Source: a virus. Taken from it: 36,700 nt of DNA. The first letter of the stretch is position 1. Each line of letters opens with the position of its first letter. Location: positions 1-36,700 of the IMG/VR virus record IMGVR_UViG_3300034631_000061; one strand, written 5' to 3'. Under the pieces are notes generated by a model that made no database searches, was not told where the DNA came from, and worked only from the letters and a program-made list of their open reading frames with translations. The position numbers were made by a program, and so were the translations under genes. Of the stretch, positions 6,621 to 20,038 are shown piece by piece.

Positions 6621-6690
6621 CATTATTCCAAATAGAATACGCAAGTCAATTGCCAATCGAAGCTATCGAATTATTCCTGTTGGAATAATG
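6621..6690. promoter_or_regulatory. divergent early/repressor switch: two operators and mirrored promoters
   Basis: Operator B (6670-6689) is ATTATTCC-TGTT-GGAATAAT, a perfect 8-base inverted repeat. Operator A (6622-6641) is ATTATTCC-AAAT-AGAATACG, matching in one full and one partial arm. The 11-mer TTGGAATAATG occurs as an inverted pair, reading minus at 6631-6621 and plus at 6680-6690, each just ahead of the start codon of the gene it faces. On the minus strand TTGACT (6649-6644) lies 16 bases from AATAAT (6627-6622), a good promoter overlapping operator A. The plus-side -10-like AATAAT (6684-6689) lacks a good -35. Short distances imply leaderless or nearly leaderless mRNAs on both sides. 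Confidence 0.75.
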
Positions 6691-6698
6691 TAGCGGGC

Positions 6699-7355
6699 AT
6701 GCGAACCGGGGAACGCATCGCGAAACTTCGCACCGATGCTGGCATGTCGCAAGCTGCGCTCGCCAAGGCGGCAGGCCTGTCCCAGCCTACGATTGGCAAG
6801 CTAGAGGCCGGGATCAGCTCAGGTTCTTCACATTTGCACCGGATCGCGCAGGTCCTGCGTACAACGCCGGGATACCTGGCATGCGAGACCGATGATCCCT
6901 CGGAAGGCGCAGTGCCGCTGCCTTCGGCGGATATGATCGCCGAACAGCTCGACTTGGTGCCGCTTGAGGAAGTCGATCTCGATTACGGTCTTGGATCCGC
7001 TTATGGCGACACTCCGGTATCGATCGTAGTCCACAAGATGCCGCGCCTCCTGATGGAGGCGATGAGCGAAAGCCCGTCGACCAGCCTTTTTGTGACGCGC
7101 GGCGTCGGCGATTCGATGCAGCCTGTCATCAATCACGGCGATCTGGTCATCATTGACCGATCGCAGCGAATCATAGGCCGCGACGACGGCATCTGGGCGC
7201 TGGCGATCAGTGGCATGCACACCATCAAACGCGTCCGTATCCGTGGCGAGCAGGTCCGTCTGCTGTCACCCAATCCCGACGTCAGCGACGACGTCGCGAC
7301 GACGGATGAGGTTCATGTCATTGGTAAGGTGGTATTTGTTGGCCGGCGAATGTAG
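6699..7355 (+). CDS. cI: CI-like repressor (HTH + S24 LexA-type peptidase domain)
   Basis: Maintains lysogeny by repressing the divergent operon. The 218-residue protein has an Xre-type HTH at 5-38 (SQAALAKAAGLSQPTIGKLE) and an S24 domain from about 105, with Ser139 in GDSM and Lys177 in TIKRV as catalytic dyad. The linker (55-105) shows no clear Ala-Gly or Cys-Gly cleavage bond, so either the site is degenerate or induction does not use RecA-stimulated self-cleavage. Palindromic operators lie directly upstream. It is probably cotranscribed with the downstream lipoprotein gene, 66 bases away. Confidence 0.9.
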   Translation: MRTGERIAKLRTDAGMSQAALAKAAGLSQPTIGKLEAGISSGSSHLHRIAQVLRTTPGYLACETDDPSEGAVPLPSADMIAEQLDLVPLEEVDLDYGLGSAYGDTPVSIVVHKMPRLLMEAMSESPSTSLFVTRGVGDSMQPVINHGDLVIIDRSQRIIGRDDGIWALAISGMHTIKRVRIRGEQVRLLSPNPDVSDDVATTDEVHVIGKVVFVGRRM

Positions 7356-7421: not shown

Positions 7422-8783
7422 ATGACTATTTCAAGACGCGACGTTGTCGCGAACGGGATAATGCTGCTCGCGCTGGGTGGGTGCGGGGGCGGCTCCGGAG
7501 GTGCAGGTGGAGGAACGGTGGACGTTCAGCCGACCCCAACACCTACTCCGACGCCTACTCCCACGCCATCACCGACCCCGTCGCGGCCGCTGACTGATAC
7601 CCGTGCCCCAAAGGGACCGAGGGTGCGCGCTACGGCCGCGGCTTCGATCAATCACTTCCTGATGACCGGTCAGTCTCTGTCCGTCGCTGGAAATTCCGCC
7701 TACCCGTCGGCCGAGCCCTACGCGGGCGATCTGACATTTTCGTCCGGCATTATGGCTGGTGTCGGCACGACGAATACCTTCGCGCCGATGCCGAAGATCG
7801 GTCCCGCTCAGGTGCTTTGGGAGGCAATGAACCAGTACAAGTTCCTGCTGACCGGCGATGCTGCTTACAACGACGACTATTCGCTACTCGCGTCTGCGCA
7901 TGGGCGGAACGGTCAACCGTTGTCTGCAATTTCCAAGGGTAGCGAGGCGTTCGCGGACGGACAGTTCCAGATTACTGAAGGTGCGCGGCTCGCGAAGGCG
8001 GCTTCGCGTACGTCCTTGGTCCAGGCGCTATGCTTTCTGCAGGGCGAAGCGGATTTCGCGACGGACGTCTCGACCTACAAGGCGCAGCTGGTGCGGCTAC
8101 TTAACGATTATCGTGTCGGTATCACCGCATCGACCGGTCAGACGTCCCCGATTTCGCTTTTCAGCTACCAGTGCGCGTCCGAGCAGTATCAGTGGGAGCG
8201 GGGCGAGGAGTATGAGCCGCACACCGCCGCGGCGATCAACCAGCTGACCCGCGATACCGACGACATCCTGTGTTTCGCGCCGACGTATCACCTCGATTAT
8301 TCCGACGGTGTCCATCTGATCGGCGACAGCTATCAGCATCTGGGGCAGCATCTCGGCCGTGTGCTGTACTCAGTCGTCTATCGCGGGGAGCGCTGGACCG
8401 GGCTGCGGCCAAGAACCATTCGGTGGGATGGCGCGAGCACCGTGCGCGCGGTCTTCGATGTCCCGGTCGCACCGATCGTCTTCCGCACCGATCGCGTGAC
8501 TGATCCGGGTGATAATGGCTTTGTCGTTCGCGATGGGCGCGGTACGGTCGCGATCCGGTCAATGCAGATCGTCGGGTCGGATACGGTCGATATTGTGCTT
8601 GATCGTCCGCTGCAAGGTAGCGCGACGCTGGCCTATGCGTGGTATTCCGTGGGTGGGCAGCTCGCCGGTCGCACGACTGGGCCACGCGGGTGCCTGTTCG
8701 ATAGCGATCCCACGCGGCCCGCGCACCGCGATTCATCGCTTGCCAATCCATGCGTGCGCTTCAAGGAAGCGATTACGACGTGA
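7422..8783 (+). CDS. lipoprotein SGNH/sialate-esterase-like hydrolase, paralogue of the tail esterase
   Basis: 453 residues. The N-terminus has SRRD (twin-arginine-like) and a lipobox LGGC with Cys21, then a Gly-rich stretch and a Pro-Thr repeat linker (37-53), as in surface-tethered enzymes. The catalytic domain has GQS (Ser85), QGE (207-209) and DGVH (295-298): the sialate O-acetylesterase-type Ser/His layout. From about residue 75 to the end it aligns with the tail protein at 17480-19003: shared FAPMP, QLGQHLGR or HLGQHLGR, YRG..WTGLRPR, VFRTD.VTDPG, TTGPRGCLFDSD or KTGPRGCLFDSD, and LANPCVRFKEA. AAAAGGGGGATCA before the ATG is a good ribosome site. Expressed with cI it would be an envelope enzyme of the lysogen. 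Confidence 0.85.
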   Translation: MTISRRDVVANGIMLLALGGCGGGSGGAGGGTVDVQPTPTPTPTPTPTPSPTPSRPLTDTRAPKGPRVRATAAASINHFLMTGQSLSVAGNSAYPSAEPYAGDLTFSSGIMAGVGTTNTFAPMPKIGPAQVLWEAMNQYKFLLTGDAAYNDDYSLLASAHGRNGQPLSAISKGSEAFADGQFQITEGARLAKAASRTSLVQALCFLQGEADFATDVSTYKAQLVRLLNDYRVGITASTGQTSPISLFSYQCASEQYQWERGEEYEPHTAAAINQLTRDTDDILCFAPTYHLDYSDGVHLIGDSYQHLGQHLGRVLYSVVYRGERWTGLRPRTIRWDGASTVRAVFDVPVAPIVFRTDRVTDPGDNGFVVRDGRGTVAIRSMQIVGSDTVDIVLDRPLQGSATLAYAWYSVGGQLAGRTTGPRGCLFDSDPTRPAHRDSSLANPCVRFKEAITT

Positions 8784-8847: not shown

Positions 8848-9672
8848 ATGACTAAGCTGTGGCTCACTTACGCTTGGAAGGATAACGAGGAAGAGGATGT
8901 AGACCATATTGTCGCCTCCTTGAGGCAGGCCGGAATTGACGTCGGCTTCGATCGAGCTCAACTCTTGGCTGGACAGCGTCTCTGGACACAGATCGATACT
9001 GCCATACGCGACCCTGGTATCACTGGTTGGGCCATATACGTCACTGAGAACAGTTTGCGTAGTGAGCCATGTCAGGAGGAATTAGCATATGCCCTCGATC
9101 GAACTCTTCGTACCAAAGGCGCCGAGTTTCCGATAATCGGTTTGTTCCCAGGAAATTTGGACCGTGAAATCATTCCCTCTGCTATATCAACGCGCTTGTA
9201 CGTCAATCTACGTGCAAATGACTGGGTACAGCAAGTTTCTGATGCGTTGGCAGGAACGCGATCGGTAGTCGATCTTGCTCCTGAACCATATGGCCATACC
9301 CTTTACAAGATGCAGACATATTACTGCTTGGAAGTGTGGCCGAGAACTGGCACTTGGACGAAGCCCCACAGCATCGTACCCGAACGGGATGCCCAAAAAT
9401 TTACGCTCATGTGCGCAAATCCACGCGGTTTAATTTCAGGCGGCGGCGCCATGAAAATGGCGGGTCAATTTATGTCGAACGGACTGTTTCATAGGTATAT
9501 TGGCGACAGGGTCGATGCAGCCACTAGCTTGCATATGATGTTTGATGCCGTTCCCTCTTGGGTTGAATTTGGATCGTATAATGGATCTAGATACAGGATC
9601 GATTTCGCACCGACGTCGGATCTCGCCATTAGTTCAATTGGACAGCGCATTTGGAAGCCCGTTTCGCGTTAG
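8848..9672 (+). CDS. TIR-domain protein, probable lysogen-encoded defence effector
   Basis: 274 residues. Residues 3-85 are a TIR fold: LWLTYAW at the first strand, DNEEEDV, IDVGFDRAQLLAGQRLW, GWAIYVTENSL and SEPCQEELAYAL, where Glu77 or Glu78 is the likely NADase glutamate. Residues 85-135 complete the fold. The C-terminal domain (about 148-274, YGHTLYKMQTYYCLEVW onward) is unrecognised, with many aromatic residues and probably beta-rich. A good AGGAG lies 6 bases before the ATG. Base use differs from neighbours: 9121-9180 has 28/60 G+C versus 42/60 in 12001-12060. Its stop overlaps the stop of gene D by 3 bases (convergent). TIR proteins in phages are usually abortive-infection NADases; that role is inferred. 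Confidence 0.8.
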   Translation: MTKLWLTYAWKDNEEEDVDHIVASLRQAGIDVGFDRAQLLAGQRLWTQIDTAIRDPGITGWAIYVTENSLRSEPCQEELAYALDRTLRTKGAEFPIIGLFPGNLDREIIPSAISTRLYVNLRANDWVQQVSDALAGTRSVVDLAPEPYGHTLYKMQTYYCLEVWPRTGTWTKPHSIVPERDAQKFTLMCANPRGLISGGGAMKMAGQFMSNGLFHRYIGDRVDAATSLHMMFDAVPSWVEFGSYNGSRYRIDFAPTSDLAISSIGQRIWKPVSR

Positions 9673-16751: not shown

Positions 16752-17483
16752 TTACAGCATTCCGCCCTTTGCGATCAGCTGACGGCGCAAGGCGCGCATC
16801 GTGCTGGCGAGCTGGTCGGCGGACAGCAGCCGGTCCCAATAGGCGAGCGCGGCATATTGGCCGGCGCTGCGCACATAGAGATCGCCAGACGTCAGGGTCG
16901 AGGTGGCGAGCAGCGGATAGACGCCGGCGGCATCGATCGCGGTGCCGGCATTCCACGGCAGTCCATCGAGCGAGAGATAGATCCGCGACCCGTCGCATCC
17001 GATCGCGTACATGATCCAGCAGTCGAAGGACTTGCCCGGCACATCGCCGATCTCGCCCGTCTTGATATTGCCGCCGCCGGTGCCGGCCGAATAGACGAAG
17101 CCGCAATGCGCGCCGGCGCGGGTCAGGGAAATGCCGCGTCCCTCGCGGTCAGAGAGCAGGTAGGACTGCGCCGCACTTTCCGCGCGGTAGACGACGACGG
17201 CGGTGAAGCGATTGCCGGCGGCACCCGCCCCCCGGCGCAGATCGGTGGTCAGAATCGCCGCATTGCTGCCATTGGCGAGCAAGCCTTTCGACCAGCGGAC
17301 GTCGGCGGCCTGCGGATCGACTGCCATCGTCCGCCCCATGCCCGACTTGTCGAGCAGGTAGGTCTGTGGACCGAGAAAATCCCAATAGCCGAGCAGGCCC
17401 TCGGTCGGCAGGCGTCCGATGCCGGAGAGCGTGAGGGCGGCGGGCGCGACCAGGCCGCGCATGGCATAGGCAATCCCGCTCAC
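16752..17483 (-). CDS. tail-associated lectin-like protein
   Basis: 243 residues, start at GTG 17483 overlapping the esterase stop (GTGA). It carries GYWDFLGPQTYLLDKSGMGR and ends with LAYWDRLLSADQLASTM: features of concanavalin A/LamG-type jelly-roll domains seen in phage fibre and receptor-binding proteins. Strands such as RIYLSLDGLPWNAG fit the fold. It sits after the tail esterase at the end of the J-I-H block, suggesting a fibre tip or accessory adhesin. Family assignment is from pattern only. Confidence 0.65.
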   Translation of the reverse strand: MSGIAYAMRGLVAPAALTLSGIGRLPTEGLLGYWDFLGPQTYLLDKSGMGRTMAVDPQAADVRWSKGLLANGSNAAILTTDLRRGAGAAGNRFTAVVVYRAESAAQSYLLSDREGRGISLTRAGAHCGFVYSAGTGGGNIKTGEIGDVPGKSFDCWIMYAIGCDGSRIYLSLDGLPWNAGTAIDAAGVYPLLATSTLTSGDLYVRSAGQYAALAYWDRLLSADQLASTMRALRRQLIAKGGML

Positions 17484-19003
17484 GATACGGCTTCCTTGAA
17501 GCGGACGCAGGGATTGGCGAGATCCCATGGAGCATCCGTATTGATGAAATACCCCTGCGTCGTATCGCTATCGAAGAGACACCCGCGCGGGCCGGTCTTC
17601 GGGCCACTGGCGGTGCCGCCGGTCGTGTCCCAGGCATAGCGGACCTCCGGATTTCCGGCCATGTCGCGGCCGAGGGTCAGCAGCACCTCTTCCGGCCCGA
17701 CAATCTGCCGATTGACGATGGCGGTGCCGCCTTGGTCATCGACGAAGCGGAAGCCACCCTGACCGGGGTCGGTGACGATATCGGTGCGGAAGACGAGCGG
17801 GGCGACCGGCACGTGGAATCGTAGCAGCACCTTATTCGATCGATAGCGGATCACTTCGCGTGGGCGCAGGCCGGTCCATGCCGATCCGCGATAGACCGCC
17901 TCGTAGAGCGCGCGACCGAGGTGCTGGCCCAGCTGGGCATAGCCATTGCCGGTCATGTGGCGATCGTCGGAATATTCGACGTGATAGGCCGGGCACGCGA
18001 TCAGCAGCTCGCCCGCCTTGACCAGGTCGTAGAGCGCAGCGGCGGCGGTCGGCTGATAGGGCTGACCGGCCGCATAGTCGGTCTGTTGATCGGCATCCTG
18101 GATAAAGAGGAAGGGCAGCGACAGCTGGCCGGTGCGGGACCGGACGTCCGCCTTCACGTCGGTCATGAGCTGGCGCAGGGCGGCGCGATAGGTCGCGGTC
18201 GGCGTATTGACGTCGGCATTGCCCTGAAAGCCGCAGAATGCCCCGACCCGGTGGATATAGCCCGCTGTGTCGGACAGGCGGGCGGCATTCGCCACCTGCG
18301 CCATCAGGCGGGTGTAGGTATCGGAGCCCTTGGAAAGCTGCGCGAGCGGCGTGCCATTTTGGAAGCTGGTCGAGGCGAAGAGGCGATAGTCGTCGGCATA
18401 GCCATGGTCGGCGGCAATCAAAAATTTGAGCTGGGCCATCGCCGCCCACAGGATCTGTGCATTGCCGATCACCGGCATCGGCGCGAAGGTATCGCTTGGC
18501 CCGACGCTGGTGATGCCGCCGGAAAAGGTGAAGTCGCGGGGATCAACGCGCGGGCTGGAGTAGATCGCATTGCCGGCACCCATTTGCGACTGGCCCCAGC
18601 CCAGAAAATGGATCAGCGCCAGTGCGTGATGCGAGATGTCGCGGCGCGCCGGTCCGATCAGCCGGGCGCGCGGATTGAAGAATTGCCCGGTATCGAAGTG
18701 CGGGGTCAGGAATCGGCCGCTCGCAAAGCTCGCGCGGATGACGCTTCCGGCTTCATCGGTCAGCGCCTCGACCGGTCCTTCGACCACGCGATCGATCCGC
18801 GCGTCGGTCGCCAGCACACCCAAAGTGGCGACATGCCCTTCAGCCTGGGCGATGGCGGCATCGGCGCGGGCGAGGGCGGGGGCCATTGCGGCTTCGGCAA
18901 GTGGGCGCAGCGGCGTGCGGCGGGTGACGTCGCCGTCGAGGACCGGGACCGTTTCGATACCGGTCGGCGCAGCCAGCAGGGGGAGGGCGGAAATCTTGGC
19001 CAT
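17480..19003 (-). CDS. tail-fibre SGNH/sialate-esterase-like protein
   Basis: 507 residues. An N-terminal 125-residue part (helical; ARADAAIAQAEGHVATLGV) suits virion attachment. The catalytic domain has GQS (Ser139), QGN at 260-262 (Glu replaced by Asn) and DDRH (346-349). From about residue 130 it aligns through to its end with the lipoprotein at 7422-8783 (shared QLGQHLGR, YRGSAWTGLRPR, FRTDIVTDPG, KTGPRGCLFDSD, LANPCVRFKEA). It lies after H, the position of receptor-binding or depolymerase proteins. Most likely it deacylates a surface polysaccharide on adsorption; substrate unknown. Confidence 0.85.
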   Translation of the reverse strand: MAKISALPLLAAPTGIETVPVLDGDVTRRTPLRPLAEAAMAPALARADAAIAQAEGHVATLGVLATDARIDRVVEGPVEALTDEAGSVIRASFASGRFLTPHFDTGQFFNPRARLIGPARRDISHHALALIHFLGWGQSQMGAGNAIYSSPRVDPRDFTFSGGITSVGPSDTFAPMPVIGNAQILWAAMAQLKFLIAADHGYADDYRLFASTSFQNGTPLAQLSKGSDTYTRLMAQVANAARLSDTAGYIHRVGAFCGFQGNADVNTPTATYRAALRQLMTDVKADVRSRTGQLSLPFLFIQDADQQTDYAAGQPYQPTAAAALYDLVKAGELLIACPAYHVEYSDDRHMTGNGYAQLGQHLGRALYEAVYRGSAWTGLRPREVIRYRSNKVLLRFHVPVAPLVFRTDIVTDPGQGGFRFVDDQGGTAIVNRQIVGPEEVLLTLGRDMAGNPEVRYAWDTTGGTASGPKTGPRGCLFDSDTTQGYFINTDAPWDLANPCVRFKEAVS

Positions 19004-19006
19004 GTA

Positions 19007-20038
19007 TCAGTTTCCGATCGCGAGCCAGTCGAATCCGTCTAGGCCGCCATTGGCGTCGTCGGACTGGTACTGGACGGTGAAGCCGGCGGCGTCGGGATCG
19101 CCAACGAGCTGGCAGAAATAATCGTCGCTGGCGTTGGCGCTGGCGATGCGCGGGGTCAGCAGCACGCGGAAGCAAGCGGTCGGAAAGGGGACGTCGAAAG
19201 GCACGCGCAGCGAGATCTCGCTATTCGAGCGGCCCCGATACCCGCCCCATTTGTCGATGCGGCCGCCGGGCAGGGTGTAGGAGCCGGTGGCGGCGATGGT
19301 GGCAAGGTCGCCGAAATTCTTTGGGGTGAGCGCCGCATTGCCGGCGGTGCCGGCGCGCATCTGGGCAGCGGTGGCAGACGGGACTGAGATCGTCACGTCG
19401 CTCGCCAGCGTCTGCGCGCCGAAGGCGAGACCCGCCGTCTTGATCTGACGTGTCATCGGTACGCGCTCGGCGATCAGCGCGGTGATGGTCAGCAGGAAGG
19501 CGGTCAGCCGATCGGTCAGGCCGCGCGGGGTGACGGCGCGGGTCGCATCGGTGCCGGTGCCGACCTCAGCAGAGGTCGCCAGCTCGACCACGCCGGCGAC
19601 GGTTTCGGTCGCGGCGGGATTGAGAAAATTGGTGTCGCCGAAGGTGAGCGAGGTCGCGGTCCCGGTCGGGAAGACGAGGTCGATCGCGATATGCATCATC
19701 GAGCGCGCCGATTTCTCGAAGATCGGATCGCCCTGGGCGTAGACCGCGAAGAGCGTGCCGTCGGAGAGGAAAAGGCCGAAGCCACGAACCTCGTACTGGA
19801 TTTCCGCCGCGTCGCGCACGACCAGGTGGACGGTGTCGGCGCCGGTCGCGGCCCCTGAGATCGTCGCGACGCGGCGAAATTCGCCTGGCAGCGCGGTCAG
19901 CGTCGGTGCGGCGACGAAGGCGGCATTTGACAGGCCGACCGCCGATACGGTGAGGTCGATATCCTCGCCGAGCTGCGCGGCGGTAAAGCGCTGCAGCCCG
20001 GCCGAGGTGATGACGAGCGAAAGCGAGGGTACGGTCAT
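19007..20038 (-). CDS. H: P2 gpH-like tail fibre protein
   Basis: 343 residues. The N-terminal half (SLVITSAGLQRFTAAQLGED ... FLSDGTLFAVYAQGDPI) is the phage tail-collar/fibre N-terminus joined to the baseplate; residues about 150-175 (GVVELATSAEVGTGTDATRA) form a fibre repeat typical of the gpH/gp37 type. The rest is low-complexity beta-sheet; the last part likely carries the tip. It overlaps I by 4 bases. Shorter than P2 gpH; the receptor binding may have been passed to the two downstream proteins. Confidence 0.88.
   Translation of the reverse strand: MTVPSLSLVITSAGLQRFTAAQLGEDIDLTVSAVGLSNAAFVAAPTLTALPGEFRRVATISGAATGADTVHLVVRDAAEIQYEVRGFGLFLSDGTLFAVYAQGDPIFEKSARSMMHIAIDLVFPTGTATSLTFGDTNFLNPAATETVAGVVELATSAEVGTGTDATRAVTPRGLTDRLTAFLLTITALIAERVPMTRQIKTAGLAFGAQTLASDVTISVPSATAAQMRAGTAGNAALTPKNFGDLATIAATGSYTLPGGRIDKWGGYRGRSNSEISLRVPFDVPFPTACFRVLLTPRIASANASDDYFCQLVGDPDAAGFTVQYQSDDANGGLDGFDWLAIGN

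Follow-up and report, generated by a model that had tools for sequence, protein, structure and literature searches.

How does a temperate phage come to carry, directly behind its repressor gene, a putative lipoprotein related to its own tail esterase, and what would such a protein do in the lysogen? The window, i.e., the whole stretch analyzed, is a complete IMG/VR record of 36.7 kb from a P2-like temperate phage or Sphingomonas prophage, and its related prophages are located in Sphingomonas genomes. The first-pass annotation had proposed that the phage duplicates its tail esterase as an envelope lipoprotein, which alters the receptor and thereby excludes superinfecting phages.

The lipoprotein gene and the repressor unit

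The left part of the window contains the following features:

1-1263: tyrosine integrase
1345-2472: PAPS-reductase-like protein, encoded beside the integrase and matched to BrxP by PADLOC (E 1e-12)
6622..6641: degenerate copy of the probable operator, three mismatches (pattern search)
6670..6689: perfect 20-bp palindrome ATTATTCCTGTTGGAATAAT, located between cro and cI and probably the repressor operator (pattern search)
6699..7355, plus strand: cI-type repressor, 218 aa, HTH_3 and peptidase S24 (Pfam and PHROG matches)
7422..8783, plus strand: predicted lipoprotein esterase, 453 aa, ATG start, SASA/SGNH domain (residues 72-320) and C-terminal beta domain (321-453)
7422..7484, plus strand: its predicted Tat-like lipoprotein signal, residues 1-21, ending in the lipobox LGGC (sequence; similar host lipoprotein N-termini)
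7485..7634, plus strand: its Gly-rich/Pro-Thr-rich flexible linker, residues 22-71 (sequence; disordered in the model)
8848..9672, plus strand: TIR-domain protein, 274 aa (Pfam TIR_2, E 3e-13; GC 0.50)

The cI gene has a 77% identical counterpart in a Sphingomonas panni prophage and faces a cro-like gene on the opposite strand. The operator pattern was matched twice in the window versus 0.01 matches expected, with no third copy of the palindrome anywhere in it, and the pair between cro and cI is likely the repressor operator. The lipoprotein gene begins 66 nt past cI on the same strand, with the ribosome site AGGGGG, and the TIR gene follows 64 nt further on, again on the same strand and with its own site (AGGAG). 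Neither gap contains a predicted terminator, and a scan for sigma-70-like promoters, which does not span all promoter types, gave none in them. The earlier placement of the lipoprotein in the immunity transcription unit is thus upheld by the tandem arrangement, the short gap, the good ribosome site, and the lack of a predicted terminator.

The signal peptide, lipobox, and PT linker that had been described for the product likewise hold. Its N-terminus (MTISRRDVVANGIMLLALGGCGGG...QPTPTPTPTPTPTPSPTPSRP) agrees with a Tat-like lipoprotein signal followed by a PT linker: by inspection, rather than with a dedicated signal-peptide predictor, SRR is found at residues 4-6 and LGGC at 18-21, ahead of a PT-rich stretch, and residues 1-70 have a pLDDT below 50 in the AlphaFold model. 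This N-terminus is host-like, as the signal/linker region matches many ORFs in four Sphingomonas genomes, and one of these ORFs (in L037) likewise has RR first, then a lipobox, then PTPTPT. The gene has a GC content of 0.62, and PADLOC returned no match for its product.

Homology and fold of the two esterases

The second protein is encoded among the tail genes:

17480..19003, minus strand: tail-fibre esterase, 507 aa, ATG start, virion adaptor (MAKISALP...PTG), SASA/SGNH domain, C-terminal beta domain
19007..20038, minus strand: tail fibre protein with a Gp53-like C-terminus, upstream of the tail esterase (Pfam, PHROG)
minus strand: tail genes D, U, T, tube, sheath, V, I, and J, together with the fibres

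Both ORFs are present as annotated, and the homology claimed for their products is far beyond chance, with 179/384 identical residues (47%), 321 bits, and an E value of 2e-109 in BLASTP. The alignment covers the C-terminal 380 residues of the lipoprotein, and identity amounts to 52% in the C-terminal domain as against 45% in the catalytic one. The common catalytic order GQS ... QG[E/N] ... DxxH was located in the lipoprotein as G83-Q-S85, Q207-G-E209, and D295-G-V-H298 (catalytic residues S85, D295, and H298) and in the tail esterase as G137-Q-S139, Q260-G-N262, and D346-D-R-H349, so that block III differs, being QGE in the former and QGN in the latter. The long identical segments that had been reported were found in both proteins (WTGLRPR, TGPRGCLFDSD, and LANPCVRFKEA); the last of these is indeed shared, although it is not the very C-terminal end for which it had been taken, lying three residues (lipoprotein) and two residues (tail esterase) short of the terminus.

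Structural similarity between the two, which the first-pass annotation had made a test of its reading, was found by prediction. The AlphaFold models (mean pLDDT 75.9 for the lipoprotein and 70.5 for the tail esterase, and above 85 over long parts of the shared domains) agree in the order of their elements, with a beta domain behind an SGNH alpha/beta domain in both. In Foldseek, the best PDB match of both is the SGNH domain of the phage Pan3 tailspike (PDB 9vyh; E 7e-21 for the lipoprotein and 2e-21 for the tail esterase), followed by the carbohydrate/sialate acetylesterases XAC1771, SIAE, CE20, and NanS. A sequence profile of the family also retrieved the Pan3 tailspike (E 6e-19) as well as the esterase 2apj. 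With regard to Pfam SASA (PF03629), the tail esterase scores 31.5 bits, above the curated cut-off of 24.8 bits, whereas the lipoprotein, 47% identical to it, falls below with 19.0 bits (E 0.0012). Both match PHROG 4201 (tail fiber protein), with E values of 1.1e-82 for the lipoprotein and 2.8e-75 for the tail esterase. The lipoprotein is nevertheless not filed as a tail fibre, since its match begins at residue 71, its N-terminus is a signal and linker, and its gene lies behind cI. Taken from sequence and models, it is predicted with moderate confidence to be a lipid-anchored carbohydrate O-acyl esterase, in which a tail-fibre catalytic module stands behind a Sphingomonas-type signal and linker.

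At the DNA level the picture is different from that of a copied gene. The two genes are 56% identical in nucleotides, their longest exact common word is 20 nt, and their synonymous codon agreement (51%) is only slightly higher than random (43% +/- 3.5%). A duplication within this phage, as had been suggested, is therefore not borne out, and a recent intragenomic duplication or gene conversion was rejected, given the 56% identity and the lack of any high-identity tract. This leaves an old duplication or the acquisition of the lipoprotein from a different phage. From their sequences, the two can safely be called paralogues, as long as the term means no more than that one genome contains two homologues.

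Relatives of the module and the slots of the two genes

In a tree of 27 sequences, the lipoprotein and the tail esterase are sisters (support 100/99), and the nearest relative of the lipoprotein anywhere searched is its own phage's tail module. All further relatives found are at most 33-37% identical over the aligned stretch. The relatives fetched from IMG/VR (15/15) and, with few exceptions, those in Sphingomonadaceae genomes are C-terminal modules of long tail-fibre proteins, typically of 560-950 aa with tail-fibre-like N-termini. Among phage and plasmid records, most of the annotated relatives are tail proteins as well. Within the Sphingomonadaceae, relatives are few, weak (at most 37% identity), and mostly phage tail modules. 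Besides the window, no lipoprotein form of the module was found in 694 Sphingomonadaceae genome searches, in IMG/VR, or among phage and plasmid sequences. When IMG/VR and GTDB were scanned for patterns from the lipoprotein, from the tail esterase, or from the two together, no close relative came up, although relatives without the chosen short peptides can escape such scans. A host origin of the catalytic domain was rejected, as no host enzyme found in these searches is closer than the phage's own tail. Since the relatives are distal tail-fibre modules, it is most likely that a virion module moved into an envelope protein, and the simplest history would be that a tail-fibre module was put behind a host-type lipoprotein signal. 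The sequences are compatible both with an old duplication inside the phage and with a transfer in a related phage that later passed the gene on.

The tail-esterase slot is itself variable in related phages. A short N-terminal adaptor, MAKIS(E/A)LP...PTG, of about 30-70 residues is kept (L005, L006, L008-L010, L013-L015, L017, and L026) and the C-terminal modules behind it are swapped. The L017 protein matches Lipase_GDSL_2 (GDSL/SGNH enzyme) and, by inspection, those of L005, L010, and L014 have GDS/GSS motifs, while the modules of L006, L008, and L026 are longer, without a family match, and, likewise by inspection, of beta-helix-like appearance. From these sequences, the slot looks like one for receptor-acting enzymes.

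The region between gpD and cI is hypervariable among relatives as well. Directly behind the closest cI relative, that of S. panni (L110 7221-12450), comes a HATPase protein; with the two unknown genes and the C5 DNA methyltransferase that come next, it possibly makes up a defence cassette of restriction-modification-like type. In other Sphingomonas prophages, the gene directly behind cI is a PDC-M41A gene, a SIR2-like gene, a HIRAN gene, or a small lipoprotein. Given this variety, the position can be regarded as a slot for prophage-expressed cargo, much of it defence-like. The small lipoproteins directly behind a cI homologue (L011 7577-8122 and L102 ~2108-2623) are unrelated to that of the window; lipoproteins thus recur in the slot, though not this one.

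The neighbouring TIR gene agrees with such a slot. A full-length homologue of it with 63% identity stands alone on a Sphingomonas chromosome (L052 8738-9499), with no lipoprotein neighbour. Together with the difference in GC content (0.50 versus 0.62), this makes the two genes better seen as separate cargo, the TIR gene being likely of separate origin, and the solitary homologue speaks against lipoprotein and TIR protein forming one conserved system. In the TIR protein, whose C-terminal half has no family assignment, the string SEPCQEEL near residue 72 resembles the catalytic-Glu region of TIR domains.

Recurrence of the duplication in related prophages, which the first-pass annotation had pointed to as informative, was not observed. 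None of the 17 related prophages repeats the lipoprotein, and a comparison of moron-region with tail ORFs on the same contig in 13 related IMG/VR loci gave no other lipoprotein/tail pair, the one moron-region/tail pair that it did yield (L007) being unrelated. For two other SGNH tail modules (those of L017 and L010), no lipoprotein form is evident among the strong matches in 295 genomes; weak GDSL matches to them are short host-type proteins. The pair in the window is, among the sequences compared, a single case.

Putative function of the lipoprotein

The best-supported function is receptor modification leading to superinfection exclusion, a putative assignment of middling confidence. The lipoprotein would be made together with the repressor in the lysogen, exported, and then lipid-tethered to the envelope by its flexible linker. 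Export is possibly via Tat, as the SRR motif suggests, and this route would be apt for a domain with an evolutionary history of cytoplasmic folding. The tethered enzyme would then remove the acyl groups recognized by the tail esterase on exported or surface polysaccharide, acting on chains that pass through the periplasm or else, if the enzyme is displayed there, at the cell surface. Lipoproteins of Proteobacteria face the periplasm by default; surface display would need a further step, and surface access is an assumption that counts against this reading. A lysogen so changed would bind this phage and others with the same receptor poorly, and lysogens or debris would not use up new virions. 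Such a change of receptor would imply exclusion of heteroimmune phages that use it and less loss of progeny. More tentatively, the temperate phage may have refitted its own receptor-destroying tail enzyme as a lipid-anchored lysogeny protein, with which the lysogen strips the receptor needed by its own virions and by competitors.

The receptor-modification reading is strengthened by the nearest relative being the phage's own tail module and by the defence-like cargo that relatives carry downstream of cI. Counting against it, the 56% nucleotide identity leaves room for a different substrate, block III differs between the two proteins (QGE and QGN), and neither the related prophages (0/17) nor the 694 Sphingomonadaceae genome searches gave a second lipoprotein of this kind.

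The same observations bear on other explanations. In a lysogenic conversion, the lipoprotein would benefit the host by remodelling its exopolysaccharide or by deacylating environmental (e.g., plant) glycans, phage exclusion being incidental or absent. The carbohydrate acetylesterases among the fold neighbours, the host-type signal, and the frequency with which prophage accessory genes help the host speak for this; we nonetheless consider it unlikely, as the closest relative is the phage's receptor-acting tail module rather than any host enzyme, and both the neighbours and the slot are defence-like. It is more doubtful that the lipoprotein is made mainly in the lytic cycle, where it would strip acyl groups from the receptor of the producing cell and keep progeny from being caught on pieces of envelope, in the manner of viral neuraminidase or phage T5 Llp. 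It does have the domain of the tail enzyme, and its substrate would be the phage's own receptor, but its gene lies behind cI, away from the lytic operons and on the strand opposite to the tail genes, and has no operator copy of its own.

The tethered domain could be a binding decoy without catalysis in vivo, which occupies the receptor polysaccharide and sterically blocks incoming tails; the better conservation of the C-terminal domain than of the catalytic one would agree with this, yet the catalytic Ser, Asp, and His are all kept, and we regard a decoy as quite improbable. Hardly credible is a two-gene defence system, in which the envelope enzyme would detect phage, with the TIR domain killing the cell or arresting it. 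What favours it is the adjacency of the two genes on one strand, with the 64-nt gap, and the TIR domain itself; set against these are the solitary TIR homologue, the unlike GC contents, and the lack of an evident link between an envelope protein and a cytosolic TIR.

Several known systems come close to receptor modification by the lipoprotein. SGNH tail fibres of Klebsiella prophages are proven acetyl esterases, and gp63.1 of the E. coli phage G7C deacetylates LPS (PMC13123978). These receptor-binding proteins and the Pan3 tailspike have the fold and catalytic motifs of the pair in the window, whose tail esterase itself belongs to the SGNH/SASA esterase tail fibres. The known members are virion proteins, whereas in the lipoprotein the virion adaptor appears to have given way to a lipoprotein signal and linker. 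Ltp of the Streptococcus thermophilus phage TP-J34 is likewise a prophage-expressed lipoprotein of the lysogeny module that excludes superinfecting phages, but it blocks DNA injection via the tape measure protein, is no enzyme, and does not derive from a tail receptor-binding module (PMC3952083). Acyl change of the receptor excludes phages in the case of Oac, the O-acetylase of Pseudomonas phage D3 (PMC11436027). Like it, P22 gtrABC and the O-acetylases of Shigella phages are prophage-encoded enzymes that alter the acyl or glycosyl decoration of a receptor polysaccharide, all of them membrane transferases that add groups (PMC11436027, PMC13123978). The lipoprotein of the window, in contrast, is a putative hydrolase that would remove groups and is homologous to the tail enzyme, i.e., the same logic with opposite chemistry. 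Llp of phage T5 and similar phage lipoproteins mask receptors and protect against superinfection. Llp is, as the lipoprotein is predicted to be, a phage-encoded envelope lipoprotein, but it binds an outer-membrane protein receptor and is without a catalytic domain, which the lipoprotein is predicted to have. No tail-derived, lipid-anchored exclusion enzyme in an immunity unit was found in the literature searched, a scope outside which many subscription papers fall.

Exclusion by adding groups, through O-acetylases and glucosyltransferases, and exclusion by lysogeny lipoproteins are thus already known. What would be new, if the receptor-modification reading is true, is that the excluding protein is a tail enzyme refitted as a lipoprotein, and the weight of this is limited by its being a single case. 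The tail module of such a phage would then predict what the lysogen removes from its own surface, and prophages would be a route for acylation changes on the surface polysaccharides of Sphingomonas.
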